A stretch of 64,000 nucleotides of DNA, taken from the IMG/VR virus record IMGVR_UViG_3300007520_000021, positions 30,461 to 94,460 of that record; one strand, written 5' to 3'. Both the position numbers and the translations under genes were made by a program. The first letter of the stretch is position 1, and each line of letters starts with the position of its first letter. Positions 27,501 to 51,793 of this stretch are shown piece after piece. The notes beneath the pieces are model-generated. The model did no database searches and was not told where the DNA came from. It was given only the letters and a program-made list of their open reading frames with translations. Source of the stretch: a virus.

Positions 27501-28985
27501 ACTTTAACTGGTTTAAATGCTGTTGTTGCTGAGTTTAATGAGGTTTACATGATTGGTAGGATGGGATTAGATATTGATGATATCTGTAATTCAACTATAA
27601 ACTTTTCTAGGAAGAATTACGCTAATGATATTGGTGGTAAGATTAAATTAGTTGGTAACACAATTAAATCTAAAAAAATGCCAACTTATATTGAAGAGTT
27701 TTTAGGTAAGGGTTGTAAGTTATTATTAGAGGGGAATGGTAAAGATTTCATTACCTTATATCAAGATACGGTGGATAACATTGTTAATTATGATATTCCT
27801 TTAGTTAAAATAGCTTCAAAAGCTAAAGTTAAGATTAGTAAAGAAACTTATGCTAAGAAAATGAAAACTAAAAATAAGGCTGGTAATATGGCAGCTAAAC
27901 AAGCTCACATGGAGTTAATGGTTGCACATGACTTAGAATTGAATTTAGGTGATGTTATTTATTACGTTAATACTGGAACTTTAAAATCGCATGGTGATAT
28001 TAAAACCATCAAAGAAGCGAATGGTAGTACTAGAGTTGAGATGATGTGTAAGTTGATTTCAGCTGAGGAAATTGAGCGTAATCCAGATTTAACGACTGAT
28101 GGTTATAACGCCCCAAAATATTTAGCTGCTTTTAATAAGAGGATTAACCCGTTGTTAGTTTGTTTTGAACCAGAGGTTAGGAAATTGTTAATTATGGATT
28201 TAGTTAAAAATACTAAAACTAAAGAGATGGAATTAACTGAGAAGAATTACTTTACCGATGAGCAATGTGTTTTAATATCTGGTAAACCATTTTTAGATAG
28301 TGACCAAGATACTTACACTGATTTGATGATTATGGAAGATAAAGAGATAGTTTTTTGGTTAAGGGTGGATAAGATACCTAATAACATGTTGGAAACTGAG
28401 TGGGTGGAAACTGTAGCTGATTACCATGAAAGAATGCGATTGGCTAGGTTAGATGGTATTGAAAGAGACGTTAAATTATTCCCTAAAGTAGTTAGAAGAC
28501 TTGAATACCATGAATTAGAAGAAATTAGAGGTAAAGGTGTTTTACCTAAAGATTTAGACTTCATCACACTTGAACCAGTTATATTAGATGGTGAGGTAAG
28601 TGAGATTAACGTACACTCTAAAAAATGGGGGGTGATTATAGGTAAATTTGACGATATATTCTCTTATGAAACACTAGCTAAAGAAAGAAGTGAGTTTTAC
28701 GAAGATAGAGCTGAAGCCAAAGGTTTAGAACTTAATATTAGTAAAATAAAGATAATGGATTATTATGAGTGGTTATTCGATAAATTAGCTATAGTCACCA
28801 CTTACGCTAAATTAAAAAGGAATAGGACTTTAAATTTAGTTGAGTACCTAAATAATGTTGAGAATCAATTTTTTAATAACATTAAAAAAGAGCAGCCTAA
28901 ATTATTTGTTGGTGATACTTTAGAAATTTTAGAAATTAAAGATGATGTTTTACCTAGTGATGATTATGAGTTTAGTATTTTTTAA
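24525..28985 (+). CDS. Family B DNA polymerase with an intein
   Basis: The phage replicative polymerase, 1486 aa before splicing and about 1150 aa after loss of the 336-aa intein. The 3'-5' exonuclease is present: Exo I FDLETTGLKP (about residue 173), Exo II GYNSENFDWDFFF (about 235) and a later Exo III-like region. Palm motif A is LDYAALYPNI (D at 479), motif B KILANSFFGSFG (about 570-580) and motif C GDTDGFNF, whose GD (623-624) and TD (961-962) are separated by the intein. The protein is larger than T4 gp43 owing to extra sequence in the N-terminal and C-terminal parts. It has its own host-type promoter and a terminator downstream, so it is expressed as a single gene. Confidence 0.95.
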   Translation: MNKTQISSEDIENYLQGNDPQKYIVSVEAPYYQNVASLVINDPELGKYIERVTYKPFVWMSHDMSKIMFNGNRTKIAQAMKDYSVTISDLTIKDGNGFIPSRMDNGYKYIVKTTLSYTNLLNFFKSGGVDIYSEEHRKYFMYISPTEQFLIQTGKRLFKGFGDYNDLHRLQFDLETTGLKPSTSSIFQIGIKDNRGYERVLEVKGNDEFELRESERLLIFEFFNIVDELKPDVISGYNSENFDWDFFFVRCEKLGISITEASTTLNDSKIVRKAARVKYGGDTEDYEQTYMWGYNIIDIMHSVRRAMAINSDIKEYGLKYITKFSKIAKPNRVYVPGNKIHSTWADTTNNYYFNDDNGDWFIEDSENARNVEKINGEYHSYVKVSGSFIVHRYLLDDLWETEKIDERFNQATFLLGKIIPTSYMRSSTMGTAGIWKLIMMGWSYENGLGIPQLQSQETFVGGLSRLLEVGYAVNVGKLDYAALYPNIELTWDIFPDIDISGVMKGMLLYIAETRDVYKAIKGEHNVKASKLKDKFSLLDELSEEYIKLKKEYDIEKGLEDKFDKKQLPLKILANSFFGSFGAPHLFPWGDIDCAEETTCRGRQYLRLMVSHFHEGYNFRPLVGDSVTFDTPIYVKWKNDNKLDILPISDVFNVNSDVFDETGLRDLEVKPYEVLTVNGWREINYVYRHKTNKKIHRVSTKDRLVCVTEDHSLFQNGIQVKPSDLKRGDLLDVHKIPNLGDFHNAEIIDDDLYFLYGYFLGGGSYENDTFNISGGSLSDLERLQKIISIKFLIDYKLIDLRGTNGVYSLTYNSVELVKIFGSEFYTSYGDKKIPCFILNTNDSNKLSFLNGFSSYDNYVDELETSSFLGLKSQVAMSGIAYLMDNLNLNKEIISKKGDNELMTFRVESINDVNPELINKMKSNEVWLNEVIMNGCPNGYVYDISTQDGTFIGGIGGIDLKNTDGFNFAIPDSVEDIQYYVKGNHRLTEYNKGKTLTGLNAVVAEFNEVYMIGRMGLDIDDICNSTINFSRKNYANDIGGKIKLVGNTIKSKKMPTYIEEFLGKGCKLLLEGNGKDFITLYQDTVDNIVNYDIPLVKIASKAKVKISKETYAKKMKTKNKAGNMAAKQAHMELMVAHDLELNLGDVIYYVNTGTLKSHGDIKTIKEANGSTRVEMMCKLISAEEIERNPDLTTDGYNAPKYLAAFNKRINPLLVCFEPEVRKLLIMDLVKNTKTKEMELTEKNYFTDEQCVLISGKPFLDSDQDTYTDLMIMEDKEIVFWLRVDKIPNNMLETEWVETVADYHERMRLARLDGIERDVKLFPKVVRRLEYHELEEIRGKGVLPKDLDFITLEPVILDGEVSEINVHSKKWGVIIGKFDDIFSYETLAKERSEFYEDRAEAKGLELNISKIKIMDYYEWLFDKLAIVTTYAKLKRNRTLNLVEYLNNVENQFFNNIKKEQPKLFVGDTLEILEIKDDVLPSDDYEFSIF
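26397..27404 (+). other. Intein in DNA polymerase motif C (pol-c site)
   Basis: A 336-residue in-frame insertion between D and T of GDTD. Block A SVTFDTPIYVKW begins with Ser1, block B is TEDHSLF, block F VYDISTQDGTFIGG and it ends DLKN before Thr+1. The penultimate residue is Lys instead of the usual His. LAGLIDADG-like segments are present: YGYFLGGGS (catalytic acid replaced by Gly) and FLNGFSSYD (last acid kept), so the endonuclease looks partly degenerate while splicing residues remain. The insertion position matches known pol-c inteins. Confidence 0.9.
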
Positions 28986-30195: not shown

Positions 30196-30465
30196 CTAAT
30201 TATTACTCAATAATTTATTTATAATTGAAAAAGCTTGGTCTATTGTTTTAAAGCTAGTTTCAGGTACCAATATTAATTTATCAACCATTAATATTGGTAC
30301 ATAATCTAGTTTAACACTTTTACCTAAAAATTCCACTTCATCTTTATTTTTAACATCATCTATATCATAATCTATAAACTCAATACCATCGTTTATTAAT
30401 AAATTTTTTATCTTGTCACAATAAGAGCAAGATTTAACACTAAACACTTTAACTCTCATCATCAA
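30196..30465 (-). CDS. Glutaredoxin-like protein
   Basis: An 89-aa thioredoxin-fold redox protein. VKVFSVKSCSYCDKIKNLL holds the CxxC active site (Cys13 and Cys16, CSYC), and YVPILMVDKLI gives the cis-proline VP motif. Phage glutaredoxins supply electrons to ribonucleotide reductase or other reductases; no reductase is in this window. It has three possible ATG codons at the start (MMMRV). It overlaps the helicase stop by 17 nt, so it is translated from the helicase transcript. Confidence 0.85.
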   Translation of the reverse strand: MMMRVKVFSVKSCSYCDKIKNLLINDGIEFIDYDIDDVKNKDEVEFLGKSVKLDYVPILMVDKLILVPETSFKTIDQAFSIINKLLSNN

Positions 30466-33235
30466 CCCCTTCTATTAACACTTCCATGAACTCATTTATA
30501 ATATCATCATCATTAAACGCAACATTACCCATAATTGTATTTATTATTTTAGTTTTATTTTTAATTGTATACCACATTCTAGTTGATACGGTATCAGCGA
30601 ATAATTGATAGTATACCGATACATTATTTGTTTGTCCAATTCTATACGCTCTATCTTCGGCTTGTTCGTTGTTTCCTGGTACCCAATCGAATGAGTTAAA
30701 GATAACAACACTACCAGCGGTTAGAGTTATCCCAACACCAGCTGATTTTATATTACCAATAAACACATTTATTTTAGGGTTATCTTGGAAACTATCGATT
30801 GAGTTTTGTTTACCCTTAGCATTCATAGGGCCATTATGTACAACACATTCTTTTCCGAACTTATCAGCTAATTCCATCAACTCATCTGTGAATGTTGTGA
30901 ATATGATAACCTTTTGACCTTGGTCTATCGCATTTTTAGCTAATTCAATTGTTTGGGGAATTGCTTCCATTGCTATGAATTTCCTAAGTAGGATTAATTC
31001 AACCATGTCTTTCTCCACCTTACCTCGTTTTTTAGCTATTTTCCTCTCTTCTAAGTACTCTTCCCACAAATTATTGTATTCAGCCAGCCCATTCTTATCT
31101 AGTTGGTGAAATAGGGTTGTAATCGTTTTATCGGGCATATCTAAAACATCATTTTTTTTCCTCATTAAAATAAGGTTTCTAGTTCTAACTGATAATTCCT
31201 CTAAATTAGAAGCTCCATTAGTAATCCAAATTTTCTTATTTTTACCACCGTATTTATTCCCTTGGAAAATTTGTTTACCTTCACAATATCTCTTAACAAA
31301 AAACATCCAATTATCAGCGATTGGTGCTTTAATTAGTTTTAATAAATTAAAATAATCCATTGGTCTATTAGCTATTGGGGTTCCAGATAATAACCACACT
31401 TTCTTAACATTATGGTTAACACATAAATCAACCATAATCTCACCTCTAATTGATTTATGGTTCTTTAAATTGTGGGCCTCATCGATTATGACTAAATCAA
31501 AATGTGAATTTACCAAATGTCTATGGAAAACAGCTGTGGGGTCCTCCTCTTTACTAATTTTTTTCTCACCCAATGTATGGAAATTCTTTAAAATATCGTA
31601 GTTTATAATTGTGAATTTACTAGAATCCCATTTCCTACCACTAACAATGGCGGTTTCATCACAAAAACAATTAATTTCCCTCTCCCAATTAATTTTAACT
31701 GACGATGGACAAACTATTAATATTTTTTTAGCTCCACTCTCTAAAGCTGAAACTACTGACATATATGTGTTATGCGTTACAATAGCATGGTTTAATGTGA
31801 ATAATGAATCCTCAGCATCAACTTTAATACAAGTACTATCACCACCACCAATAGATTCAATATTCTTAATGTACCTACCCACCTTATGTTTTTTAGATGT
31901 ATTATACTCATCCGATTTCATTTTAAATCTAAATGGGTTCATATCTTCTGGTAATTTAATATTCAACCTATAAGCTAGTTTACATAATACTTTAGTCCCA
32001 TCTTCTTTTTTATATGACCCAATTTTACTACTTTTCTTAACAATACCACCCAAACTATGAACAATTTCAGCAATGTCATCAACTAATTGTTCTGACACAC
32101 TGCAATATTTAACACCACTAAAATTACCATTCTTAGATTTCACACAATGACCATCAATATCCATAAGACCTTGTAGGGTTGATAACCTATCTTCTATATT
32201 AGAGTATTTAAACACATCTGGGATGAATTTAGTGTGTGATAACGTAACATCACCATAACCTAGAGATACCCCTAATAAATAAGGTTCGATTGGTAATGAA
32301 TATTCATTTTCAAATTCGATTGGTTTAACAATCGGAATTTGCCATTTAGAATCACCATTTTTTACCTTATAATAGGTTTTAAATTTATATGGTCGTTTTT
32401 CATTCAACCCAAAACCCTTCTGTTCTAATTCTAAATTCTCATCTAACATTTGTTCAATGGTTAGATTAGCATATCTAACACTACCATTACGAGATGTTAC
32501 CGTCCACATATGTTCTTTACAACAAGTAGTAGAATAACCATCATTAAATGTTACTTTAAAAATTTCTTTTTTAGGTTGTGGGTGAACTTCAAGAACTTTA
32601 GTTTTCTTACCGTCAGAACCTATTACATAATCACCAACTTTTAACTCACCCATTTTAACTTTCCCTGTAGGTGTATACACTAATTCTGAGGTACTTACAC
32701 ATTTCCCTAACCCCATATCATCAGCTAAAACACAACCATCTCTAGATAATAAAAACTTAATACCTTCTTTTTGATGTTCGTAAGGTGTTCTACTTTTAGT
32801 ATCTAATTCTACGTATTTATCGAAATCCACATCAATATCAACTGATTCAAAATATGGGTCATCAATAACCATAGTTTTAGGTAACCAATACATCTTAGAA
32901 TTTTCTTGATTCCTAGTTAATTTACCATAAACATGATAAGCTTTTTCGGTGTCGGCTAACATAAATTCAACCAATATTTTAGTTGGAAGGAAGCTTAATT
33001 CCAAATCTTTTTGTAGTTGTTGACCTAGGAAAGTTGAGAATTCAATAATCCTATTAATTAACAATGGTTCTTTATCATGAAAGTTAGTTATGTAATCAAC
33101 TTGCTTTTCAGTTAAACTTATTTTATTATTTTTAACTAGTTGACCCTTTAGTTTCCTTAGATAAGGGTTTTTACCAGAATACTCCTCTAGTATCACTAAA
33201 GCTGAACGACTTTTAAGGAAATTTATATCAATCAA
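30449..33235 (-). CDS. SNF2-family helicase with an intein in the Walker A motif
   Basis: A 928-aa protein, 617 aa after removal of a 311-aa intein. SNF2/superfamily 2 motifs are complete: YEHQKEGIKFLL (Q-like), VLADDMGLGK (I) joined to T490 after splicing, LVIIDEAHNLKN (II), VWLLSGTPIANRP (III), KVIIFTTFTDELM (IV), SAGVGITLTAGSVVIF (V) and QAEDRAYRIGQTN (VI). SMARCAL1/HepA-like phage helicases remodel DNA-protein or branched DNA structures. The start codon is TTG (33235); the first internal ATG is about 90 residues later and would remove conserved sequence. Glutaredoxin follows on the same transcript. Confidence 0.9.
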   Translation of the reverse strand: MIDINFLKSRSALVILEEYSGKNPYLRKLKGQLVKNNKISLTEKQVDYITNFHDKEPLLINRIIEFSTFLGQQLQKDLELSFLPTKILVEFMLADTEKAYHVYGKLTRNQENSKMYWLPKTMVIDDPYFESVDIDVDFDKYVELDTKSRTPYEHQKEGIKFLLSRDGCVLADDMGLGKCVSTSELVYTPTGKVKMGELKVGDYVIGSDGKKTKVLEVHPQPKKEIFKVTFNDGYSTTCCKEHMWTVTSRNGSVRYANLTIEQMLDENLELEQKGFGLNEKRPYKFKTYYKVKNGDSKWQIPIVKPIEFENEYSLPIEPYLLGVSLGYGDVTLSHTKFIPDVFKYSNIEDRLSTLQGLMDIDGHCVKSKNGNFSGVKYCSVSEQLVDDIAEIVHSLGGIVKKSSKIGSYKKEDGTKVLCKLAYRLNIKLPEDMNPFRFKMKSDEYNTSKKHKVGRYIKNIESIGGGDSTCIKVDAEDSLFTLNHAIVTHNTYMSVVSALESGAKKILIVCPSSVKINWEREINCFCDETAIVSGRKWDSSKFTIINYDILKNFHTLGEKKISKEEDPTAVFHRHLVNSHFDLVIIDEAHNLKNHKSIRGEIMVDLCVNHNVKKVWLLSGTPIANRPMDYFNLLKLIKAPIADNWMFFVKRYCEGKQIFQGNKYGGKNKKIWITNGASNLEELSVRTRNLILMRKKNDVLDMPDKTITTLFHQLDKNGLAEYNNLWEEYLEERKIAKKRGKVEKDMVELILLRKFIAMEAIPQTIELAKNAIDQGQKVIIFTTFTDELMELADKFGKECVVHNGPMNAKGKQNSIDSFQDNPKINVFIGNIKSAGVGITLTAGSVVIFNSFDWVPGNNEQAEDRAYRIGQTNNVSVYYQLFADTVSTRMWYTIKNKTKIINTIMGNVAFNDDDIINEFMEVLIEGVDDES
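31769..32701 (-). other. Intein in the Walker A motif of the SNF2 helicase
   Basis: A 311-residue in-frame insertion between K and T of GLGKT. It begins with Cys179 (block A CVSTSELVYTPTGK), has a block B-like CCKEHMWTV, two LAGLIDADG segments (LLGVSLGYGD and LQGLMDIDG) and block F/G ending AIVTHN before Thr490. All splicing residues are canonical (Cys1, His-Asn at the end, Thr+1). The second endonuclease motif keeps its acids. The ATP-binding site is formed only after splicing. Confidence 0.92.
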
Positions 33236-40567: not shown

Positions 40568-43357
40568 ATGGCACAAAATAGAGTATTCGTAAGTCCAGGT
40601 GTATACACATCCGAAAAAGATTTAACATTTGTAACTCGTCAAGTTGGGGTAACAACACTTGGTTTAGTTGGTGAAACCACTAAAGGTCCAGCTTTCCAAC
40701 CAATATTTTTATCAGATTATGGTGAATTCACGTCATTTTTTGGTGCTTTGGACGCTAGGAAAGTAAAGGAAACTGGTAATGCACAATATGAATTACCTTA
40801 TGTTGCTAAATCTTTTTTATCTAAATCAAACCAATTATATGTTACCAGAGTGTTAGGTTTTTCTGGTTATAACGCTGGTAAATCATGGGGTATAACATTG
40901 GACGCTTCATTAGACCCAAGTACTATTGTTTTGGGTGCAAGTGATGTTCCATTTACATTGGGTTTCACTGGTTCATTTAGTGCTAACACAATATCATTAA
41001 TTTCTAGTGATTCTAACGTTCAAAACATTATTGATTCTGGTTTAATTAATACATCATTAGTTACCTTATTAGGTTCTAATGTTGGTGATGAATTAGAAAT
41101 ATCACAAACTTTCTTAAAGGGGGTTGGTAATATTTTTAATGGTTCAGAATTCTCATTAGGAGTAACAGCAGTTGGTATTGTTGGTGATGATGTAAGTGGT
41201 ACAACATCTGGTTTAACAACAAATTACTCAGCAACTGGTTATGCTGATGTGGAGAATAAGGTTGTTGCTTTATTGAGAAGTAGAGCTAGATATAATGGTG
41301 ATGAAGAATTAAAATTTGAAATTACAAATCAAAGTGATTTATTGATAAATACTTCGATTACCCAAGCTGAAAATAACCCTTTGGGTAATTTAGTGTTAAG
41401 TGGTACATCCATTTTAAATGGTTTTACATCTAAGGGAGATTTCAATTATGAAATTTCATTTGATAAGACAAAAAGAAATTACATTACAAGGGTATTAAGT
41501 AAGGAAGTTAAAGATGGTAATACACCTATTTTTGTTGAGGAGATATTTGAAAACATGTTTAGTGATTTAGTTAACGCTGATAAAGTTAAAGGTATTAAAT
41601 TAGCTTTAGTTGATTATGAAACTGATTTTGTTAATTATAAAACGGAGTTCTCACCAGCTATAACACCTTATATTTTATCTGAAGTTAGAGGTAATAAGAT
41701 ATTTAAATTATTTAGATTTATAACAATTTCAGATGGTAATACAGCTAATCAAGAGATTAAAATATCTATTAGTAATATTAAGCCAGACGATAAAGAATTT
41801 GATGTATTAATTAGAAGCTTTTTCGACACTGACGCAAATCCAATTATATTAGAGAGATTCTCAAAATGTACTATGGACCCTAATAGACCTAATTTTATAG
41901 CTAGGAAAATTGGTACGACTGATGGTTATTACCAATCAAGGTCTAAATTCTTATTGGTTGAAATGAATGAGGATGATGATATTAGAGATACATTCCCAGC
42001 TGGTTTTGATGGTGTTTTAACTAGAGATTATGGTACTGCATTAGCTCCAAATATAGAGTATAAAAAAGCTTATACAAACGTTGAGAATAAACGTAAGGCC
42101 TTTTTAGGATTATCTAACATTGTTGGGATTGACCAAGATTTTTTAAACTATAAAGGTGTTGATTCTAATGGCGTTGCTTTTCCTAATAAAACTAGCGCAT
42201 TCCATTTAGACTCAAACGCTGTAAACGTTTTAGCTATTGATAATGAAGCGACAACATTTGAGGTTGGTGAGGCACCTTTTCAAAATGAGGCTGGTCTTGG
42301 TGGTACTGTTTATGAAAAACTATATACTCGTAAATTTACATTTGCACCATATGGTGGTTTTGATGGATGGGATATTTATAGAACAAGAAGAACTAACTTA
42401 GATTTATTCTCTAAAAACGCATCTGGTAAAGCTTTAAAAGGTATAAACCAAGGTAATTTTATTTTGAAAAGTTTAAGTAGTGGTGAGATTGGAAATACTT
42501 CTGATTATTACGCATACTTAGAAGCTATTAGAACATTTGCTAACCCTGAATCTACGAATATTAATATATTTGCAACACCAGGTATTGACATATCCGACAA
42601 TCGTAATTTAATTGAAGAAACAATTGAAATGATTGAAAGAGAAAGAGCTGATTCATTGTACATTGTAACAACACCTGATTTTGAAGGTATGACAGCTGAT
42701 GAAGCGGTTGACTTAATAGAAGATAGTGGTATTGATAGTAATTACTCTGCAACATATTGGCCATGGGTACAAGTAAATGACTCTGAGAATAACGTTCTTA
42801 TTTATTTACCACCAACTATTGATGTTGTTAAAAATATAGCTATAACTGATAATATTTCATTCCCTTGGTTTGCAGTTGCTGGAATTCAGAGAGGTGATAT
42901 GGATGTTGTTAAGGCTAGAAAAAAATTAACTTTAGGTGAAAGAGACGTTCTTTATGAAGGTAGAATTAACCCAATCGCAACATTCTCTTCTGAAGGTGTT
43001 AAAATATGGGGTAATAAAACACTTCAAGTTAAAGATACAGCGTTAAACAGAATTAATGTTAGAAGACTTTTATTACAAGCTAGAAAATTAATATCAGCTG
43101 TTTCTATTAGATTATTGTTTGAACAAAATGATGATATTATTAGGAACCAATTCTTAAGCCTTGTTAACCCAATATTGGATAATATACGTTCTGAGAGAGG
43201 TTTAACCGACTTTAGAGTTGAAGTGGATAGAAGTCCTGAATCGATTGATAGAAACGAGTTAAACGGTAAAATATTCATAAAACCAACTAGAAGTTTAGAA
43301 TTTATCTCAGTTGAGTTTAACATTATGAATACTGGTGCTAGTTTTGATGATGTTTAA
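40568..43357 (+). CDS. Contractile tail sheath protein (gp18-like)
   Basis: The 929-aa sheath protein of a contractile tail. The start FVSPGVYTSEKDLTFV matches the N-terminal sheath signature (SPGVYxxExD), and VGLVGETTKGPA-like sequence follows. The C-terminal domain has the conserved core: GRINPIATFSSEGVKIWGNK, TLQVKDTALNRINVRRL, LFEQNDDIIRNQFL and the final FIKPTRSLEFISVEFNI strand that swaps between subunits. It is longer than T4 gp18 (659 aa), with extra middle domains. A homing endonuclease gene separates it from the tail tube gene. Confidence 0.95.
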   Translation: MAQNRVFVSPGVYTSEKDLTFVTRQVGVTTLGLVGETTKGPAFQPIFLSDYGEFTSFFGALDARKVKETGNAQYELPYVAKSFLSKSNQLYVTRVLGFSGYNAGKSWGITLDASLDPSTIVLGASDVPFTLGFTGSFSANTISLISSDSNVQNIIDSGLINTSLVTLLGSNVGDELEISQTFLKGVGNIFNGSEFSLGVTAVGIVGDDVSGTTSGLTTNYSATGYADVENKVVALLRSRARYNGDEELKFEITNQSDLLINTSITQAENNPLGNLVLSGTSILNGFTSKGDFNYEISFDKTKRNYITRVLSKEVKDGNTPIFVEEIFENMFSDLVNADKVKGIKLALVDYETDFVNYKTEFSPAITPYILSEVRGNKIFKLFRFITISDGNTANQEIKISISNIKPDDKEFDVLIRSFFDTDANPIILERFSKCTMDPNRPNFIARKIGTTDGYYQSRSKFLLVEMNEDDDIRDTFPAGFDGVLTRDYGTALAPNIEYKKAYTNVENKRKAFLGLSNIVGIDQDFLNYKGVDSNGVAFPNKTSAFHLDSNAVNVLAIDNEATTFEVGEAPFQNEAGLGGTVYEKLYTRKFTFAPYGGFDGWDIYRTRRTNLDLFSKNASGKALKGINQGNFILKSLSSGEIGNTSDYYAYLEAIRTFANPESTNINIFATPGIDISDNRNLIEETIEMIERERADSLYIVTTPDFEGMTADEAVDLIEDSGIDSNYSATYWPWVQVNDSENNVLIYLPPTIDVVKNIAITDNISFPWFAVAGIQRGDMDVVKARKKLTLGERDVLYEGRINPIATFSSEGVKIWGNKTLQVKDTALNRINVRRLLLQARKLISAVSIRLLFEQNDDIIRNQFLSLVNPILDNIRSERGLTDFRVEVDRSPESIDRNELNGKIFIKPTRSLEFISVEFNIMNTGASFDDV

Positions 43358-43375
43358 TCTAAAATACATTATATT

Positions 43376-43407
43376 AAAAAACCCTCTATTAATAGAGGGT
43401 TTTTTTA
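43376..43407. terminator. Bidirectional terminator between tail sheath and homing endonuclease
   Basis: AAAAAACCCTCTATT and AATAGAGGGTTTTTT form a 15-bp perfect stem with no loop bases, followed by T and A runs on both sides. It separates two convergent genes; the minus-strand gene ends within it. Confidence 0.85.
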
Positions 43408-44822
43408 TATAACATAGTACCACAATCATAAATTCGATATAATTTTCGTTCTAACATAATTTCATGTTCAGTTTTATTAACATCAAAACCCTCTTTTAAT
43501 AACTCACTTTTTCTAAATTTAAATCTATTCACTCTATTACCCTTAAAAACATAAAAATAATTTGGTTTACTATTATGAATGAAATTAAAACCTAAAGTAT
43601 CATATAAACTACCTTGACTCCAACGTCTATCAGCATAACTAATAATATCAATAGGTCGGTTGTTTAATGTAAAATTTTTAAATAACTTTGAAGCACCACC
43701 AATAACACTCGTATTTATTTTATTACAAAACCTAATTAACTCATAATTACCATTTTTAGGTTTTGAACCTAAACTACGTCTTAAATCACCAAAAGTCATT
43801 AAAGACACTAACTCATTATTATAATATAACCCTAAATTAATCTTAGAACCCACAGCACCTTGGATGTGATTATCGTTTAAGAATTTAGTTTTTTCCTTAA
43901 CTAAAACATTTTTAACCTCACATTTCCTAGCATATATCCTATTTTCATTTAAACCTAACATATTACTAATTCTACTTTTAACAATATCTTTTTTATTAAC
44001 CCACTCATCCTCAAAAATATGTATCAATTTAATACCATTTTCCAAACATTTATTAGTTTTATTTAAATGATATTTATTATCCTTAAACAATTCAGAATGC
44101 CAATATAAACCATTATACTCAATGGTAATATTATGTGATGGAATATAAATATCTAATTCAAATGGTTTTATAATACTTTTATCATTACTAATAAAATTAA
44201 CACCTAAAGATTTAATGAAGTCCTTAACTTCCGTTTCACTTTTATCATATTTTAAACCACATTTAGGACAACCTTTACCATTTAAATGGTCGTTTGGGGT
44301 TTGTGAATAAGTACCATGTTCCTCACAAATTATATCAACTTTTATTTTAGATGATGTGTAATTAGTTAATGAGTAATCATATTTATTAGAATGAGTTAAT
44401 TCTGATTTCTCATAAAATTGTAAATTAGTTAAATTTCTTTTATCATTATAACATTTAGGGCAATTTTGTTTATAGTGATTATTAGGTAAAGTATGGTAAG
44501 GACCATGTGTTTTACAAATAACAATTAGTTTTGTTTTAGCATCAACATATTTTGTTAAAGAATAATCATATTTATCCCCATGAATACCAATTGATTTGTT
44601 AATAAAAAATTCAGTATCAACTTTAGGATTTTTAGAACAATGTATACAAGCCTTTTTACCCCTTAAATGCTCAGAAGGTGATTGTGAAAACTCAAAATTA
44701 TGTTTAATACATTTAATATTTATCTTATCAACACTGTTACTATACACAGTATTATCATAATTAAAATCTTTATCTAAACCCTTATTTTCACATTTACTCA
44801 AAAATTTTATTAATTTACTCAT
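43389..44822 (-). CDS. Free-standing homing endonuclease: zinc-ribbon repeats plus Vsr/EDxHD-like nuclease
   Basis: The 477-aa protein starts with three or more zinc-ribbon-like repeats of the form CxxHGxYxxxPxxHxxGxxCPxC (CKTHGPYHTLPNNHYKQNC, CEEHGTYSQTPNDHLNGKGC), the DUF723 type used for DNA binding. Next comes a Vsr/EDxHD-like nuclease: SLGVNFISND, FELDIYIPSHNITIEYNGLY with E/D acids, WHSE, and KLIHIFEDEW. Such stand-alone endonucleases cut intron-less or intein-less alleles and spread by homing. It is in reverse orientation between tail sheath and tail tube genes that would otherwise be adjacent, which is the usual site for such mobile genes. The insertion site sequence cannot be defined here. 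Confidence 0.8.
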   Translation of the reverse strand: MSKLIKFLSKCENKGLDKDFNYDNTVYSNSVDKINIKCIKHNFEFSQSPSEHLRGKKACIHCSKNPKVDTEFFINKSIGIHGDKYDYSLTKYVDAKTKLIVICKTHGPYHTLPNNHYKQNCPKCYNDKRNLTNLQFYEKSELTHSNKYDYSLTNYTSSKIKVDIICEEHGTYSQTPNDHLNGKGCPKCGLKYDKSETEVKDFIKSLGVNFISNDKSIIKPFELDIYIPSHNITIEYNGLYWHSELFKDNKYHLNKTNKCLENGIKLIHIFEDEWVNKKDIVKSRISNMLGLNENRIYARKCEVKNVLVKEKTKFLNDNHIQGAVGSKINLGLYYNNELVSLMTFGDLRRSLGSKPKNGNYELIRFCNKINTSVIGGASKLFKNFTLNNRPIDIISYADRRWSQGSLYDTLGFNFIHNSKPNYFYVFKGNRVNRFKFRKSELLKEGFDVNKTEHEIMLERKLYRIYDCGTMLYKKTLY

Positions 44823-44838
44823 TTTTTTTGATTATTGA

Positions 44839-44849
44839 TGTATTTATAT
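44839..44849 (+). promoter_or_regulatory. Candidate late promoter box TGTATTTATAT before the tail tube gene
   Basis: TGTATTTATAT lies about 60 nt before the ATG at 44909. It matches the late-box consensus except for its second base and would restore transcription of the tube gene downstream of the endonuclease insertion. Confidence 0.4.
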
Positions 44850-44908
44850 GTAAGTACGACACAAAGATACTAAAAATAAATATAATAAAAAGAAAAACAA
44901 TAAAAATT

Positions 44909-45397
44909 ATGGCTGATTTATTAATGAAAATGCCCGTACCTTACGAACCTAAAAGGAAGAATAGATGGCTTTTTAGATTTCCGTCCGATTTGGGTATTCA
45001 AGAGTGGTGGTTACAAAGTGCTGCTAGACCTACAATTACGCAAAACGAGGTTGAGATACCATTTTTAAACACTTCAACTTGGGTTATTGGTAGATTCACA
45101 TGGGAAGCGATTGACGTTACCTTTAGGGATGCAATTGGACCCTCAACGGCTCAAGCTATTATGGAGTGGGTGCGTTTACATTCTGAATCAGTTACAGGTC
45201 GTCAAGGTTATGCCGCTGGTTATAAGAAAGACATTGAGATAGAGATGTTGGACCCGACTGGTGTTGTTGTTGAAAAGTGGGTTTTACAAGGTACTATGAT
45301 TGTAAGTGCTAATTTTGGTGATTTATCAATGGATGATGATGGGATTGCTGATGTTACAACCAATTTAAGATTTGATAGAGCTATTTTAGTATTCTAA
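44909..45397 (+). CDS. Tail tube protein (gp19-like)
   Basis: About 162 aa, the same size as T4 gp19. The reading frame is open upstream to 44828 but the A-rich leader and the gp19-like length favour the ATG at 44909 (MADLLMKMPVPYEPKRKNRW). The protein has WLFRFPSDLGIQEWWLQSAA, the RxPxxI-like segment, FTWEAIDVTFRDAIGPSTAQ (the characteristic strand and helix) and DLSMDDDGIADVTTNLRFDR near the end, all in the order of phage T4 gp19/PF06841 tube proteins. Subunits stack to form the inner tube of the contractile tail. It is separated from the sheath gene by a homing endonuclease. Confidence 0.9.
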   Translation: MADLLMKMPVPYEPKRKNRWLFRFPSDLGIQEWWLQSAARPTITQNEVEIPFLNTSTWVIGRFTWEAIDVTFRDAIGPSTAQAIMEWVRLHSESVTGRQGYAAGYKKDIEIEMLDPTGVVVEKWVLQGTMIVSANFGDLSMDDDGIADVTTNLRFDRAILVF

Positions 45398-45472: not shown

Positions 45473-46228
45473 CTACATTAAGTAGTCTTCATAACTATCA
45501 TAACTATCATAATCCCTAACCTCATAAAACTCACCTATATCAAGACATACGTGTTCACATTCATCTATCTTCATATAGTTGCTAGTATGGTAGTGTCCAT
45601 AGAAGTGTTTTTTAATTTTATTATTAAGTTTTAACAATTCAAATAATCTAGTAACCTCAAAACGTTCATCTACTAAATCTTTTGGTAGTGTAGGGTCGTA
45701 AGGGATAAACATTTTAACGTTTGATGCCCAACAATCTATTTCATTAATCATATGTTTATCAACATATGGTGTTGTGAAATTTGTTGTTGTATGTGTTACT
45801 AATATATCAACATCCTTTATTTGGTTAATCTTATCTAAATCAACTTTAAAACCTTCATCTTCCCAAAATTTAAAATTATCACCTCTATTAATTTCTCTAT
45901 CAATACTTACAGCACCACCAACACCTAATATTTTTTTATTTTCAATATCTAACACTGTATAATCTTCTTCTAACTTAAGGTTGTTATAAATATGGTTACC
46001 CTTGAAGTAATGAGGGTTATCATGGTTACCTCTAAAAACGTGTAGTGTGTTATTACCTAACTTTAAAGAATCGTTTAAATTATTAAATCTTTTTATTTCA
46101 TTCTCATCTCTAGTAGCACCAGCACCAAAATCACCAACATGTATTAATGTTTGGTTTACCAATTTTTTCACTTTAATAACATATTCAATATAAGAATGGT
46201 TACCATGGGTATCACCAATAAAAATCAT
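45473..46228 (-). CDS. Calcineurin-like metallophosphoesterase
   Basis: A 251-aa phosphoesterase. Motifs in order: GDTHGN (D6, H8), HVGDFG (D33), FRGNHDN (67-71, with N and H), VTHTTTN and FYGHYHTSNY, making the two-metal site of the calcineurin/Mre11-like superfamily. Phage relatives include the SbcD-like and lambda Ser/Thr phosphatase groups; this one is small and lacks SbcD extensions, so a general phosphatase is likely. A host-type TATATTTG promoter lies 17 nt upstream of its start, unlike the structural genes around it, so it is probably expressed early. It is one of two leftward genes inside the late rightward region. Confidence 0.85.
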   Translation of the reverse strand: MIFIGDTHGNHSYIEYVIKVKKLVNQTLIHVGDFGAGATRDENEIKRFNNLNDSLKLGNNTLHVFRGNHDNPHYFKGNHIYNNLKLEEDYTVLDIENKKILGVGGAVSIDREINRGDNFKFWEDEGFKVDLDKINQIKDVDILVTHTTTNFTTPYVDKHMINEIDCWASNVKMFIPYDPTLPKDLVDERFEVTRLFELLKLNNKIKKHFYGHYHTSNYMKIDECEHVCLDIGEFYEVRDYDSYDSYEDYLM

Positions 46229-46383: not shown

Positions 46384-47643
46384 ATGTCAGAAGAGATTAA
46401 TAAAAAACCAAATGTTTTTCCAACATCGGAAGAAATTGCTAAAGCTAATAGTACTGGGTCACAAATAGCTAATCAATTAAATGATGAATTGATTAAAGAA
46501 AGTGTTGGTAGTTATGAATATAAACACTCATCAATTGAGGAAGGTTATGCTGAGCAGATGCGATTAAAAACGGAGTCGCAAATTAGATTAAGAGATGAAA
46601 TGATGCGTAAAGCTCATGATTTAGCGGATAAAACGGACAGAGAACGTGCTATTAGAGATGTTAGAGGTTCAGTAATGGAGGTTAGACCAGAGTTGGCTGT
46701 TGATTATGGTACTAAATATGAAGTTGGTTATGGTAAAGGTAATAATTTAGAGACACCTAAAGTTGAAAATTTAGAACCACCTAAGGTTGCTACTTTAGAA
46801 CCACCTAAGATGGATAACTTTAAAGTTGATGAGAAAGTTGATGAAAACAAATTAGGTAATGGTATGACCAATGAGCAGCTTTATGAGTTATTAAGTAGAC
46901 CGCAAGATGATTCACCATACGATGTAATACCATTACCTTCTAAAGGTAAGTTATATAAAAACGGGAAACCAACCATGAAAGTGGGGTATTTAAACGCTTC
47001 TGATGAAAACATATTAACTAATCCAAATTTAGTACAAAATGGTAAGTTTTTGGAAATTTTATTTAATAGAAAAATGTTAGATACTGATTTAAGGTATAAG
47101 GATTTACACACTGGTGATAGAAACGCTATTATGATTTGGTTAAGGTCAACTGCTTATGGCCCTACTTATCCAATTAGTCTTTACGACCCTAGTGATTCTA
47201 AATCATTTGAGACAACAATAGATTTATCACAATTAAAAATGATTGAATTAAATGTTGAAACTGACAATAATGGTCATATATCTTATGTGTTACCTTTATC
47301 TAAGGATGTGATAACATTTAAGTTATTAACTGTAGGTGAAGTGGATGATATTGAGACTCATAATGATGAGATGGAGTTAAATTTTGGTAAGATGTATAAT
47401 GATATGTCCACATTTACCATGAAAAAACAAATAACGTCAGTTAATGGTTCTTATGGTGAAGCTGTAATATCTAAGTTTGTTGACACTATGTTGATTAGGG
47501 ATGTACAAACTTTTAGAAAATATGTTAACTCAATTGAATGTGGTATGGATATGAATTTGGAAGTTAGGACTCCTGGGGGTGAGTCCTTAAAAACATTTCT
47601 TCCCCTTAACACATCATTTTTTTGGCCTGACCTCGACTTATAA
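46384..47643 (+). CDS. Baseplate/tail assembly protein, T4 gp26-like
   Basis: A 419-aa protein. Its N-terminal 170 residues are charged, helical and repeat PPK (LEPPKVATLEPPK). From about residue 181 it has the gp26 (PF12322) pattern: VIPLPSKGKLYKNGKPTMKV, ASDENILTNPNLVQNG, GDRNAIMIWLRSTAYGPTY and finally LNTSFFWPDLDL. T4 gp26 helps build the baseplate hub. The ORF is followed at once by a +1-frame ORF with no ATG at its start (47591-47875), so a second, longer product is possible. It sits between the tail tube region and the tape measure, where tail assembly chaperones usually lie. Confidence 0.75.
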   Translation: MSEEINKKPNVFPTSEEIAKANSTGSQIANQLNDELIKESVGSYEYKHSSIEEGYAEQMRLKTESQIRLRDEMMRKAHDLADKTDRERAIRDVRGSVMEVRPELAVDYGTKYEVGYGKGNNLETPKVENLEPPKVATLEPPKMDNFKVDEKVDENKLGNGMTNEQLYELLSRPQDDSPYDVIPLPSKGKLYKNGKPTMKVGYLNASDENILTNPNLVQNGKFLEILFNRKMLDTDLRYKDLHTGDRNAIMIWLRSTAYGPTYPISLYDPSDSKSFETTIDLSQLKMIELNVETDNNGHISYVLPLSKDVITFKLLTVGEVDDIETHNDEMELNFGKMYNDMSTFTMKKQITSVNGSYGEAVISKFVDTMLIRDVQTFRKYVNSIECGMDMNLEVRTPGGESLKTFLPLNTSFFWPDLDL

Positions 47644-47875
47644 ATCCTCGTTTTTACAGGAAATTTATTTATGTTTTAGGTATTTAGGTCTATCTTATTT
47701 AGATTTAAACAAGATGCCAACTTATGAGAGAAGGTTTTTCTTAAACCTATACGTTGAGGAAATGAATAGTAAAAATGAAGCTCAAGAGTCTAGAACGAAT
47801 AACTCTAAAGGTAAGAAAACGATTAGTGGTGAAGCACTAAAAAATGATATTAGAGATAATAAGATAACTTTATAA
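47591..47875 (+). CDS. Out-of-frame extension of the gp26-like gene (gp51-like), possible +1 frameshift product
   Basis: This +1-frame ORF is open from 47591, overlaps the end of the gp26-like gene, and has no ATG until 47714. After that gene's stop it encodes KSSFLQEIYLCFRYLG, YLDLNKMPTYERRFFLN and LYVEEM, the pattern of the small hub-assembly proteins (gp51-type) that follow gp26 in T4-like phages. Since the conserved part begins before the first ATG, the protein is probably made by +1 slippage. Candidate sites are CCCC at 47602-47605, T7 at 47617-47623 and UUA-UAA at the stop (47638-47643). A non-ATG start or a sequencing error in the T-run are alternatives. Confidence 0.6.
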   Translation, partial: KHFFPLTHHFFGLTSTYKSSFLQEIYLCFRYLGLSYLDLNKMPTYERRFFLNLYVEEMNSKNEAQESRTNNSKGKKTISGEALKNDIRDNKITL

Positions 47876-47880
47876 TAAGC

Positions 47881-47910
47881 AATAAAAGACTGTAATTACA
47901 GTCTTTTATT
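47881..47910. terminator. Terminator after the gp26-like unit
   Basis: AATAAAAGACTGTAA and TTACAGTCTTTTATT form a perfect 15-bp palindrome that ends in a T-rich tract. Confidence 0.8.
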
Positions 47911-47972: not shown

Positions 47973-49238
47973 ATGGTTAAATTAATTATAAGTGAGGATA
48001 CATACTCCGTAGGTTTTAGTAAGATAAGAAAAGGTGATATTATGAACATCACCACACAAAATAAAAATATACAAGCGGAAGTTGTTGATGTGTATTCAAC
48101 ACAAATAATTATTTCAGCCCAATCAAAAAATTATTTAATATCATTAGCCTCAATGTCTGACGATAATTTGAGTTTTTTAGAAGACCCAACTGGTAGTAAA
48201 ACTAGAGGTACTATTAAAGGGATTAAATCCATCATAATAACTAGAAACGGTAAAAATATTAGTAAGATATACCCTAACAACACTAACAACGCTAAAAACA
48301 CTAATAAAACTAATAAAACTAATAAAACTAATAAAACTAATAAAACTAATAAAACTAAAACTAATAATATTATAAAACCATTTTTTAAGGAAGCTTACGA
48401 TTCCATATTAAGCGATTTAAACGATTTAACGGAGGGAGACACAGTAACATTTAGTTTTGGTGAGTTAATAACTAAAAACGACATTAAAACGGAAAATAAA
48501 AGCACCATGGAGGTTTACATTGAAAAGGTTGTTAAGGATAATCTAATTAAATGTTTGGTTAATGTAGTTGAAGGGAGTTTATTAAGTAATTTTTCAAATT
48601 TAAAGGGTGAAGTTATAATAATAAATAAAGCCAACTCATTTAGTTTATCGGAAAAAGGTGTTACACTTAACGCTAAGTTATTTAAACAAAATAAGACTAG
48701 TGATTTAGTTAGTATCCCAAATTTATATAAAATAGATAACGATGGTAAGGGGCCTGTTGGTGAAGTAAATTTTGATGATTTAATGCAGAATCAGAATTTT
48801 AAGGATTTGATGTTAAGTAAACCCACTTTCTGGGGTAAATTTTTAAATAAGAACCCTAAAGGTGTTATTCCATTATTAAAAGCTTTAGAAGGTGGTACCA
48901 CTAATAACTCACTATACGCAACAGCTAAAAAATATTTAGGTAATAATGAATATTTCTCCAAAGGTAAAAAAGTTAAATTAACTTACTTATCACCTAAAGA
49001 AATTGACCTTGGTGGTATAATGTTAAAAAATGGTACTTCCTATTTTGGTGTTTTCTTAGACTCAAAAAGAGTTAAGTTGACTACGTCAAGACAAAACTCT
49101 AAGATTGTGATGGAATTACTAGAGAAAATTGGTGATGATAAATATAGGGTTAAAATAACTAAAGAAAATACTAGAGATATCGCTATTGGGGCAGTTGATT
49201 ACGGTCAAGGTATAGTGGAACTTAAAAACAACGATTAA
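47973..49238 (+). CDS. Hypothetical tail-region protein with NKT repeat linker, 421 aa
   Basis: Not recognised. The N-terminal domain (about 1-95) is beta-rich (IQAEVVDVYSTQIIISAQ), then comes a low-complexity linker of NKT repeats (about residues 106-131) from a 9-nt DNA repeat, then a second, larger domain (FFKEAYDSILSDLNDLTEGD to the end). A phage location between the gp26-like gene and the tape measure and a late promoter suggest a tail or baseplate part. The linker could vary in length through slippage. The final residues are two bases from the tape measure start. Confidence 0.6.
   Translation: MVKLIISEDTYSVGFSKIRKGDIMNITTQNKNIQAEVVDVYSTQIIISAQSKNYLISLASMSDDNLSFLEDPTGSKTRGTIKGIKSIIITRNGKNISKIYPNNTNNAKNTNKTNKTNKTNKTNKTNKTKTNNIIKPFFKEAYDSILSDLNDLTEGDTVTFSFGELITKNDIKTENKSTMEVYIEKVVKDNLIKCLVNVVEGSLLSNFSNLKGEVIIINKANSFSLSEKGVTLNAKLFKQNKTSDLVSIPNLYKIDNDGKGPVGEVNFDDLMQNQNFKDLMLSKPTFWGKFLNKNPKGVIPLLKALEGGTTNNSLYATAKKYLGNNEYFSKGKKVKLTYLSPKEIDLGGIMLKNGTSYFGVFLDSKRVKLTTSRQNSKIVMELLEKIGDDKYRVKITKENTRDIAIGAVDYGQGIVELKNND
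48295..48366 (+). repeat. 9-bp microsatellite AATAAAACT, about seven copies
   Basis: In-frame repeats encoding NKT in the hypothetical tail-region protein. Each unit change adds or removes three residues without altering the frame. Confidence 0.8.
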
Positions 49239-49240
49239 AT

Positions 49241-51793
49241 ATGGCTGATACTAATGGTTTATCCAATGAGGATTTAAAAAGGATGGAGAAATACCTCGAA
49301 CTACAACAAAAAACAGCATCAAGTTTTAAGGGGTACGTAGAGGATGTTAAACAAATTAAGGTTATTTCAGAAAATATAGAATATATTGAGGCGAGAAAGG
49401 CTAAGATATTACAAACAATTAATGATTTAACTAAACAAGCTAAAAAAAGTAGTAAGGCTGAAAAAAAAGCGTTATACGATAAAATAGCGCAAGAGCGAGT
49501 ATCGTTAAAAATAGCTATCGAAAAAATTGACGCTGCTAAGACTGAATTAGGTTATTTAGAGGAATCAGTTAAACAAACTAAATCACTAGTATTAACTAAA
49601 GAATCCCTTAAAAAACAATTAAAAAATGTTGGTGGGTTATTATTCCAACAATTGGGTTGGTTATTAGAGCAACAGAAAGCTGTTAAAATGACCACTTTAA
49701 GTATGGGTGTTTTAGGCAACCAAGCGGGTGTTTTAAAAGCAAACCTTTACCAAGCGTCTGTCGCCACTAATAGGTTAGGTGTTGATACTAAAGATTTAGG
49801 TAAAATGCAATCTATATATTCAGAAAGTATTGGTAGAGCTGTTGTTTTCACAACCAAATCAAACAAAGCTATGGCAGAACTTTCAGCTGGTACAATATTA
49901 GGTGCTGAAGGTGCTGGTGAATTAGTGGCAAACATGGATGGGTTTAACGTATCAGCGGAGCAGAGTAGAGATTTAGTTGCGGATATGTTAAATAATGGAA
50001 CTAAAATGGGTATTAATGGAAGTAAATTAACTAAAAATTTAGCTAGTAATATTAAAATGGCTAATAAATATCACTTTAAAGGTGGTGTTGAAGGTTTAGC
50101 TAGGATGGCAGCTATATCTACTAAGTTTAAAGTTGAGATGAAAACCATTGGTTCATTCGCTGATAATTTGTTTGACCCAGAAGGTGCTGTTGAGATGGCT
50201 TCTAAATTATCAGTTTTAGGTGGTAATTGGAGTAAATTGGGTGACCCTTTTGAATTGATGTTTAAGGCTAGGAATGATTTGACAGGTTTAACCAAAGATA
50301 TTATAGCAGCTACTGAAGTAAGTGGTGTGTTTAATAAAACCACTGGTGAACTTCAATTTAGTGGTATGGAGATGCATCGACTAAGGGAGGCTGCTAAAGC
50401 TACTAATATGGAGTATGATGAATTAGCGCAGATGGCCCAAGAAGTTGGTAAGAATAACGCAAAAATGGGTCAAATGGTAACTGGTGGTAAGTTAAATAAA
50501 GAAGAAAAAGAATATTTAGCAGCTATTTCTAATTGGGATAAAGATAAAGGTAAATTCTTTGTTGAGGTATTGAATGATGAGGGTGTAACTGATAGATATA
50601 ATTTTGATGAACTACATAAGTTAGACTCCGCTATGATTAAAAACATAATGGACCAAGAAAAAAATTTAGCAGAAAGAGCTGAAGAATCTTTAACATTTGA
50701 TGAATCTTGGAAAAACTTGGTGAATACTTTCAAATCAACTCTTTTACCAGCATTTGACGGGTTTAGTAAATCAATGGAACTTGTATTAACTAGTATTGCG
50801 AAGAGTGGTGTGTTTGAGACAATTGCGCAATGGTCTATTACATTAGGTAAAACTTTAGCTGAGTGGCCTAAAACAGTTGCTGCCGTTTTAGCTGGTGCTT
50901 TCATAGTTAAAGAAGCTTGGTGGTTAGCTAGGGGTGTTTTTTTAGGACTCGGATTCAATACCACCGCTAGAGTTGGTGGTGGTGGTGGTGCTGCTGCTAG
51001 TAAAGCTACGAAGGGTAGTGGTGGTGGTGCTGCTGCTAGTAAAGCTACGAAGGGTAGTGGTGGTGGTGCTGCTGCTAGTAAAGCTACGAAGGGTAGTGGT
51101 GGTGGTGGTGCTGTTGCTAGTAAACTTGGTAAATTTACTAAATTTGCTAAAGTTGGTGGTGCTGCTGCTGCTAGTGGTGGTTTATTAACTGCTGCTTTTT
51201 CAGGTTATGATGAATATACTAGTAATGAAGAGAGTGGTATGAGTGGTGGCGAAAACGCTGGTAGGACTGCTGTTAGAAGTGGGTTGGCTGGTGGTGGTGC
51301 TTGGGGTGGTGCTACCGCTGGTGCTTCATTAGGGCTGCTTGGTGGTCCATTAGCACCAGTAACGGTACCTTTAGGTATGCTTATAGGTGGTATAGCTGGC
51401 GCTATAGGTGGTGATATGCTTGGTGATTCGGCTGGTGATGCTATTTTTGGGGGTGGTGGGGGGAGTCAAGTTCATGATGACTTTATTTCCAGACCAGGAG
51501 CTGACCCAATATCATTTAACTCAGCTGATACTTTAGTTGGTTTGAAGAAAGATGGTGGTATTGGTCGAGCTTTGGTGGAAAATAGCACTGGTAAGGGTTC
51601 AGGTTCTTCAGGTGTTAGTGTTAGTTTTGGTCAACCTTTAAGAATTGAAGGGAGTATTAATGTAACCTCTGGAAATAAATCAGCTTCAATTGATTTAGAT
51701 AACCCATTCTTTATTAGAGAGTTATCTAAAATGATTCAAGAAGAAATAAGTAGGGGTATTGGTGGTGGAAGAACGAGTTCTAACCCAATTTAA
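49241..51793 (+). CDS. Tail tape measure protein
   Basis: An 850-aa protein in the position of a tape measure, between tail tube/chaperone genes and baseplate genes. Residues 1-130 are charged coiled coil (LKRMEKYLELQQKT, KKSSKAEKKALYDKIAQERV). The middle is long and helical (VEMASKLSVLGGNWSKLGD). A hydrophobic segment at about 545-572 (TVAAVLAGAFIVKEAWW) and a Gly/Ala-rich hydrophobic stretch near 705-730 (GMLIGGIAGAIGG) fit the membrane-crossing parts of tape measures. A Gly-Ser linker with three 13-residue repeats separates these. It sets tail length and is ejected with the DNA. Relatively short for a phage of this type. Confidence 0.8.
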   Translation: MADTNGLSNEDLKRMEKYLELQQKTASSFKGYVEDVKQIKVISENIEYIEARKAKILQTINDLTKQAKKSSKAEKKALYDKIAQERVSLKIAIEKIDAAKTELGYLEESVKQTKSLVLTKESLKKQLKNVGGLLFQQLGWLLEQQKAVKMTTLSMGVLGNQAGVLKANLYQASVATNRLGVDTKDLGKMQSIYSESIGRAVVFTTKSNKAMAELSAGTILGAEGAGELVANMDGFNVSAEQSRDLVADMLNNGTKMGINGSKLTKNLASNIKMANKYHFKGGVEGLARMAAISTKFKVEMKTIGSFADNLFDPEGAVEMASKLSVLGGNWSKLGDPFELMFKARNDLTGLTKDIIAATEVSGVFNKTTGELQFSGMEMHRLREAAKATNMEYDELAQMAQEVGKNNAKMGQMVTGGKLNKEEKEYLAAISNWDKDKGKFFVEVLNDEGVTDRYNFDELHKLDSAMIKNIMDQEKNLAERAEESLTFDESWKNLVNTFKSTLLPAFDGFSKSMELVLTSIAKSGVFETIAQWSITLGKTLAEWPKTVAAVLAGAFIVKEAWWLARGVFLGLGFNTTARVGGGGGAAASKATKGSGGGAAASKATKGSGGGAAASKATKGSGGGGAVASKLGKFTKFAKVGGAAAASGGLLTAAFSGYDEYTSNEESGMSGGENAGRTAVRSGLAGGGAWGGATAGASLGLLGGPLAPVTVPLGMLIGGIAGAIGGDMLGDSAGDAIFGGGGGSQVHDDFISRPGADPISFNSADTLVGLKKDGGIGRALVENSTGKGSGSSGVSVSFGQPLRIEGSINVTSGNKSASIDLDNPFFIRELSKMIQEEISRGIGGGRTSSNPI
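50976..51125 (+). repeat. 39-bp tandem repeat in the tape measure gene (GGGAAASKATKGS, about three and a half copies)
   Basis: Units containing GCTGCTGCTAGTAAAGCTAC are repeated with almost no change; the last copy has GTTGCT and leads into a diverged end. An in-frame copy-number change would add or remove 13 residues. Confidence 0.85.

Follow-up and report, generated by a model that had tools for sequence, protein, structure and literature searches.

Introduction

The tail assembly chaperone pairs G/GT of phage lambda and E/E' of phage P2 arise by -1 frameshifting. The chaperone role of such proteins rests on the work on lambda G/GT, reviewed in PMC5009743. T4 has a short and a long form as well, gp26 and gp51, whose N and C domains are homologous to those described here and which are encoded by two separate genes facing away from each other. 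The chaperone assignment for T4-like phages was made by Vladimirov, Gautam and Davidson 2022 (Virology 566:9), as relayed in PMC10885494 and PMC12846349. According to the passages of these two papers that take up this work, some T4-like groups use a chaperone frameshift, and in one of them the poly-T sites in T4-like TAC-N genes are described as -1.

Bacterial +1 frameshifting is understood mainly through prfB (RF2), in which, with a slow codon in the A site, the tRNA in the P site moves its pairing forward by one base; a Shine-Dalgarno helix, located 3 nt upstream, is needed. Structures 5' of the shift site may act as well. A hairpin that adjoins a shift site on its upstream side promotes +1 shifts and counteracts backward ones, both on 70S ribosomes (PMC6321510) and in yeast (PMC3639245). 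In yeast ABP140, a natural, conserved stem-loop situated 6 nt upstream increases +1 shifting from 40 to 60% through a pull on the mRNA; this effect needs a re-pairing P-site tRNA and is abolished by one added codon, and the authors expected the same 5' stem-loop mode in other organisms (PMC12661321, 2025). The 5' stem-loop of T4 gene 60 acts at the mRNA exit (PMC5009743). For the influenza A PA-X +1 site, UCC_UUU_CGU, the part of the same review that treats it reports no evident stimulatory signal (PMC5009743).

The locus described here lies in a window of 64,000 bases, the whole stretch of DNA that was analysed, which is part of a 94,460-base virus record. As judged from sequence comparison, it very probably encodes both chaperones of a T4-like contractile phage, the long form being made by a ribosomal +1 shift at a U7 run. 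It shares with lambda G/GT and P2 E/E' the position between the tube and tape measure genes, the overlapping out-of-frame extension and an expected low level of recoding, but these two shift by -1, whereas the family of the window would shift by +1 on UUU_U. The domains and the short and long forms are as in T4, with one gene and a putative +1 shift in place of two genes. As in prfB, the P-site tRNA would re-pair one base forward, in the window at an A-site codon that may be slow, and one relative (L083) shares the CUU_U step; instead of the Shine-Dalgarno helix, however, the window has a conserved mRNA hairpin. Refolding of RNA at the exit would pull the message as in gene 60, which performs a 50-nt bypass and not a one-base shift. 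PA-X shows the UUU to UUC re-pairing before CGU seen in the Arg-codon relatives, but belongs to a eukaryotic virus. Frameshifting of T4-like chaperones has already been described; what we claim as new is confined to the RNA structures located upstream and to the family's breadth.

Organization of the tail module and the overlapping frames

The order of genes is sheath (40568-43357), tube, gp26-like gene, an ORF of no known function (47973-49238) and the probable tape measure gene. Thus, the chaperone gene lies between the tube and tape measure genes, an order which is repeated in annotated relatives. The relevant features are:

44828-45397, + strand: tail tube gene (upstream context), matching phrog_4542 tail tube at 5e-27
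46384-47643, + strand: predicted short tail assembly chaperone (TAC-N, resembling T4 gp26) of 419 aa, with a conserved domain that starts at about residue 170
47624-47875, + strand: predicted shifted-frame C-terminal domain TAC-C; +1 entry at GGC 47624, TAA at 47873-47875
47641-47643, + strand: 0-frame stop TAA, closing the short product 6 codons past UGG
about 47885-47908, + strand: terminator-like hairpin AAAAGACTGTAATTACAGTCTTTT, 3' of the shifted ORF; fold -16.7 kcal/mol, z -7.2
49241-51793, + strand: probable tape measure gene (downstream context), 850 aa; assigned by position, length and Gly/Ala-rich repeats

Pfam/PHROG-type profile searches gave no family match for the probable tape measure protein (49241-51793). 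The gp26-like ORF terminates with TTT TTT TGG CCT GAC CTC GAC TTA TAA, which confirms the FFWPDLDL-stop end given by the sequence-only reading of this DNA. An overlapping +1 ORF lacking a start codon before its conserved segment had also been described; it is open from 47591 to 47875, no ATG precedes that of Met 47714, and the terminator said to follow directly is the hairpin listed above. The 0-frame stop was found 4 or 6 codons past UGG in 72 of 73 relatives.

Two reverse-strand ORFs break up the tail module. By eye, the ORF in the gap between sheath and tube (43389-44822, - strand) encodes a 477-aa zinc-ribbon, homing-endonuclease-like protein, and that between tube and chaperone (45473-46228, - strand) a phosphoesterase-like one. 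A tandem repeat coding for NKT NKT (48297-48360) resides within the ORF that separates the chaperone and tape measure genes. Elsewhere in the window, intein-like inserts were seen by eye in a DNA polymerase ORF (24525-28985; GDSVTFDTPIYVKW...KNTDG) and, at Walker A, in a SNF2-type helicase ORF (30449-33235, - strand; GLGK/CVSTSELVYTP...VTHN/TYMS). The region 16969-19023 contains SHAEGxxTxASG repeats resembling YadA-type heads and probably codes for a fibre protein.

Relationship of the two products to T4 gp26 and gp51

TAC-N matched PF12322 (T4_baseplate) at 1.1e-5, with 25.7 bits against a cut-off of 24.5, and phrog_150 (baseplate hub) at 2.3e-6. The latter family includes both T4 proteins, gp26 covering profile positions 14-235 and gp51 positions 13-280, so that gp51 is the long form and gp26 the short one. 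A fusion of the two frames (P0001) aligned to positions 61-276 of the 282 in phrog_150 and gave 32.7 bits, compared to 28.2 bits for TAC-N alone; its translation had used a stand-in code with the shift placed five codons early, and three residues near the junction therefore differ from the predicted product. By this comparison, homology extends across the junction. The second protein, which had been called gp51-like, indeed corresponds to the C-terminal domain of gp51, but T4 gp51 itself is the full-length long form.

Alignment A5 of the T-domain comprises window 47624-47872 and relatives. Eight of its 32 members matched phrog_634 (baseplate hub assembly catalyst; gp51 family; 3.4e-7), and 21 matched weakly PF20546 (DUF6760, function unknown). 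DUF6760 proteins may, to go by these matches, be chaperone C domains. When the A5 profile was compared to T4 gp51 by hhalign, the final 26 residues only were aligned (E 0.004, probability 8%), and the N domain profile gave weak matches to single-sequence T4 gp26 or gp51; the relation was settled by the PHROG profiles. The N and C domains were modelled apart in AlphaFold2. The N-domain model (pLDDT 91) is near T4-like baseplate hub and hub-assembly proteins in BFVD; a fold search of the PDB yielded no significant match for it, the HK97 chaperone 2OB9_B appearing at E 6.1 with a TM of 0.46 by target. The C-domain model is helical (pLDDT 83) and had no PDB match. By analogy, the products are likely the short and long tail assembly chaperones acting on the tape measure protein.

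Conservation of the +1 arrangement

A scan of viral contigs with the gp26-like protein gave 80 loci, and every sufficiently long one of them exhibited the +1 arrangement. The set of relatives was enlarged by a profile scan, isolate genomes and a DNA-pattern scan; loci from the DNA-pattern scan, which is biased to U7GGCC, were excluded from the frequencies of frames and slip sites. Among the 136 distinct loci obtained by protein similarity, the second domain, identified by its profile, occupied the +1 frame in 133 cases and the -1 frame in two, while one contig ends too early. The same arrangement is present in the isolate genomes Mel-JY01, immuto, SP-15, LIS04 and GXN1, and in the first four of these the second domain was overlooked or split off by annotators. 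The site of the Flavobacterium phage immuto reads UUU_CUU_UGG. 3' of the 0-frame stop, the entropies of the three +1-frame codon positions were 0.78, 0.67 and 1.33, variation residing mostly at third positions.

The arrangement shared within the 136-locus set goes well past what chance would give and excludes a sequencing error as well as a separate conventional ATG-started gene. Homopolymers are error-prone, and a sequencing or assembly error in T7 could split a single gene; the recurrence in over 130 distinct loci and five isolate genomes refutes this. Synthesis of a separate small protein by internal initiation or reinitiation, e.g., at Met 47714, is in our opinion most improbable, even though this Met (MPTYERR) is found in many relatives and T4 gene 26 has an internal-start product, gene 26'. 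Other relatives have APT, LPT or IPT at the same position, a conserved segment (YK..LLEEIY) lies upstream of it, and 106 of the 133 loci contain no ATG from the start of the +1 ORF to the end of the overlap (27 do). Moreover, internal initiation leaves the conserved shift site unexplained. The frameshift proposed at the tail-chaperone position from the single sequence is thus supported, both by the +1 frame in 133 of 136 loci and by the order of tube, chaperone and tape measure genes: overlap and slip site are kept in the relatives, the relatives share the shift, which speaks against a one-base error in T7, and none of them has a conserved separate gene starting with ATG.

The two -1-frame members are L115, with an eight-U run (GAT TTT TTT TTC), and L088, with a shorter U/C-rich stretch. 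Judging by the reading frames, the chaperone family has switched the direction of shifting in these two. L155 has its second domain in the +1 frame, yet a UUU slip codon is not readily recognised at the usual position.

The putative shift site

47617-47625, + strand: predicted shift site TTT TTT TGG with the T7 run 47617-47623, identified by conservation among relatives

Positions are numbered with the first base of UGG (window 47623) as 0, the P-site codon at the moment of slippage being -3 to -1. UUU 47620-47622 in the P site would re-pair with UUU 47621-47623, and the A-site codon UGG would give way to GGC 47624-47626. Three candidate slip sites had been named earlier, the T7 run, CCCC and UUA-UAA. 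The first was corroborated, TTTTTTTGGCCT (U7GGCCU; TTT TTT TGG CCT) being invariant in 56 distinct close relatives; shifts at UUA-UAA or CCCC were rejected because re-pairing is poor and neither sequence is constrained like U7. UUU UUU followed by UGG or CGN occurs in 126 of the 133 +1 loci found by protein similarity (UUU_UUU_UGG in 73, UUU_UUU_CGN in 53). The remaining sites are UUC_UUU_CG in L085 and L116, UUU_CUU_UGG in L083, UUU_UUU_CAC, UUU_UUU_AGU and UUU_CUA in one locus each, and one locus without a clear site. In nearly all relatives, the P-site codon can re-pair one base forward (UUU to UUU or UUC, CUU to UUU); on the evidence of these comparisons it is the potential for re-pairing rather than the U run that the relatives retain.

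The codons CGC and CGG, which elsewhere in the Arg (CGN) clade amount to 0.2-0.3 per 1000 codons, occupy the A-site position at 10-11 sites each, i.e., about 40% of the shift sites of this clade, as expected for a slow A-site codon. UGG, the A-site codon of the window and the sole Trp codon, has a frequency of 8.6 per 1000. UUU makes up 83% of the Phe codons, and this commonness counts against the proposed shift. The strongest run of synonymous constraint of the region is formed by the last codons of the gp26-like gene, where CTT was found at its site in 60 of 61 sequences against 17% of all Leu codons, and CCT in 61 of 61 against 33% of all Pro codons.

Slippage of the RNA polymerase on T7 would generate transcripts that lack one U or have two extra, and the long form would then need no ribosomal shift. 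This explanation agrees with the 7-base homopolymer and with the hairpin near the U run of sister clades, which resembles a slippage or terminator motif; stem-loop-mediated transcriptional slippage, stimulated by upstream hairpins, does exist (PMC5009743). The same frames, however, are associated with a mere U6 in 53 loci, with U3 in L085 and L116 and with the interrupted UUUCUUU in L083. Furthermore, the TTT TTT register and the rare Arg codons in the A site can be understood only in terms of translation, and the hairpin of the window clade is too distant from the U run. We therefore regard slippage of the polymerase as unlikely. A ribosomal -2 shift on U7 would lead to the same frame with one extra Phe and the junction peptide TFLPLNTSFFFGLTSTYK. 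U7 allows re-pairing of the P-site tRNA two bases back, and -2 shifting is known for the phage Mu chaperones (PMC5009743), but a 5' structure works against backward and promotes forward movement (PMC6321510), which makes this reading still less likely. The sequence UUC_UUU_CG of L085 and L116 rules out both explanations at these two sites, since a -2 shift would bring tRNA-Phe to face UCU, where +1 gives UUC, and there is no homopolymer. The initial proposal of a "+1 (or -2)" shift is hence narrowed to a preferred ribosomal +1 shift.

RNA structures upstream of the shift site in the window clade

47567-47572, + strand: 5' strand of hairpin S1, GGACUC; covariation
47575-47579, + strand: S1 loop GGGGG, proposed 5' strand of S2; codon with the paired wobble base always GGR, never GGU
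47581-47586, + strand: 3' strand of hairpin S1, GAGUCC; covariation
47599-47603, + strand: CUUCC, proposed 3' strand of S2; 16 nt to the P-site codon, CTT constraint

Upstream RNA structure was not part of the sequence-only reading. Synonymous constraint is highest over the last 13 codons and in the Gly-rich stretch just upstream. There, comparison of 70 distinct sequences revealed a 6-bp hairpin, S1, in one of two registers, which is complete in 55 and one pair short in the other 15. Its pairing was never matched in 5000 trials exchanging the 3' arms among sequences; 95.3% of the cells are paired, a value reached by no shuffle and far higher than those of slid versions, but kinship inflates such simple shuffles, an objection partly met by a tree-based count and codon-preserving controls. 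The closing pair of S1 has the top MI-APC of 705 column pairs and, on the protein tree, underwent nine two-sided changes from paired to paired, the most of 494 column pairs. Another S1 pair went through 23 changes on the tree and was never broken. In L029, an A-U pair has become U-A, a swap that entails Thr-Ser and Ser-Thr exchanges. Compared to synonymous-codon randomisations, the folding energy just upstream of the site was on average lower by 1.7-1.9 s.d., a difference near zero at control sites of the same gene. Folded singly, the sequence of the window itself showed no unusual stability (z -1.5; z 0.5), and the case for the RNA therefore rests on comparison.

The sequence GGRGG in the loop of S1 can base-pair with the invariant CUUCC. 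This second helix, S2, could form with five of five pairs in 65 of the 70 sequences, and it was the sole consensus helix reported by RNAalifold. GGU/UUA, composed of the commonest codons, could also form the S2 pairing yet was never seen. As no compensatory changes of S2 were detected on the tree, it is listed as a proposed helix. Perhaps S1 and S2 constitute an H-type pseudoknot with 6 bp in S1, a loop of 2 nt, 5 bp in S2, a loop of 1 nt and a loop of 12 nt. The first base of the P-site codon lies 34 nt downstream of the end of S1 and 17 nt downstream of that of the proposed S2. An excess of stem bases about 6 nt before the P-site codon was not observed in the window clade (6% compared to 3-4% expected), nor is there a Shine-Dalgarno-like sequence 3 nt before the P-site codon of the window, which is preceded by ACATCATTT.

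Two further pairings were discarded. UUUCUUCC can pair with downstream GARGAR codons, but changes from Glu to Asp or Gln break this pairing in several relatives, leaving chance complementarity. The pairing GUUAGG/CUUAAC is broken in ACA (Thr) variants. With its rejection, neither the protein nor the proposed RNA pairs account for the TTA at 47606-47608 (-17 to -15), which is invariant in the window clade. RNAalifold gave no downstream consensus that would point to a 3' stimulatory structure, and Rfam covariance models, including those of frameshift elements, gave nothing above the gathering score.

RNA structures in the sister clades

Different structures were found in the sister clades. In the UUU_UUU_CGN clade, a helix RCCCCR/YGGGGU over a 32-nt loop is complete in 42 of 55 sequences, against 21% expected. 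The pair (-52,-13) of this clade is C-G in 45, A-U in five and U-A in one, and GGG is used in 46 of the 55 sequences though it accounts for 9% of the Gly codons. The other UGG relatives have many short hairpins right next to the site, e.g., GAUCCC-AAUU-GGGAUC in L246. In two sister clades, 85% and 46% of the sequences contain strong stems that end at -14 to -7; the corresponding values are 26% and 8% for synonymously randomised sequences and 2% and 6% for control sites, respectively. This comparison across clades includes loci found by the DNA pattern. The 3' ends of these stems are mostly at -11 to -8 (mode -10/-11), about 6 nt before the P-site codon. Regarding this distance and the re-pairing P-site codon, the sister clades fit the geometry of ABP140 closely; ABP140, however, is a yeast nuclear gene, and the window clade has a farther hairpin and a possible pseudoknot. 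Across the family, three different RNA solutions surround one conserved slip site.

Discussion

From these comparisons we infer that a ribosomal +1 shift takes place and that it is a minority event. Most ribosomes would read 46384-47643 and stop, giving the short TAC-N that resembles T4 gp26. The long TAC-NC, which resembles T4 gp51, would come from a minority of ribosomes that carry peptidyl-tRNA-Phe on the second UUU (47620-47622) and have UGG, a presumably slow codon, in the A site; after slipping forward by one base onto UUU 47621-47623, they would decode GGC and go on as far as 47872. The expected tryptic peptide of the +1 trans-frame product is TFLPLNTSFFGLTSTYK. The tape measure protein would be coated by both forms, which would also recruit subunits of the tail tube. 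A conserved upstream RNA fold, and not the usual ribosome-binding signal, may push the ribosome forward: 5' RNA refolding on leaving the ribosome would pull the mRNA and favour the forward slip. In the window clade, a helix would be located immediately beyond the mRNA exit, the arrangement proposed for gene 60, only if S2 forms.

Shine-Dalgarno motifs were found ahead of 1.9% of the starts in the window, 1.8% in the window clade and 2.1% in the Arg clade, against 25% in the other group. This suggests, but does not prove, Bacteroidota-like hosts for the window and Arg clades. Ribosomes of Bacteroidota rarely use the Shine-Dalgarno motif (PMC8710568). Frameshifting in prfB with a Shine-Dalgarno-like site is common in Bacteroidia (PMC8710568), and such hosts are therefore not barred from the prfB mechanism.

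For annotation, a rule follows, as the second domain was missed or called a tiny hypothetical gene in SP-15, LIS04 and immuto. The family provides over a hundred natural examples from bacterial viruses with covariation and synonymous constraint, and thus makes the mRNA-pulling model directly testable on 70S ribosomes. We see an even chance that it represents a widespread class of +1 shifting in bacterial viruses, in which 5' helices of the mRNA itself would drive the shift in place of the Shine-Dalgarno helix of prfB, an H-type pseudoknot in the window clade and a hairpin about 6 nt from the P-site codon in the sisters. If this is true, the drive by 5' helices would suit hosts whose ribosomes hardly use Shine-Dalgarno pairing.
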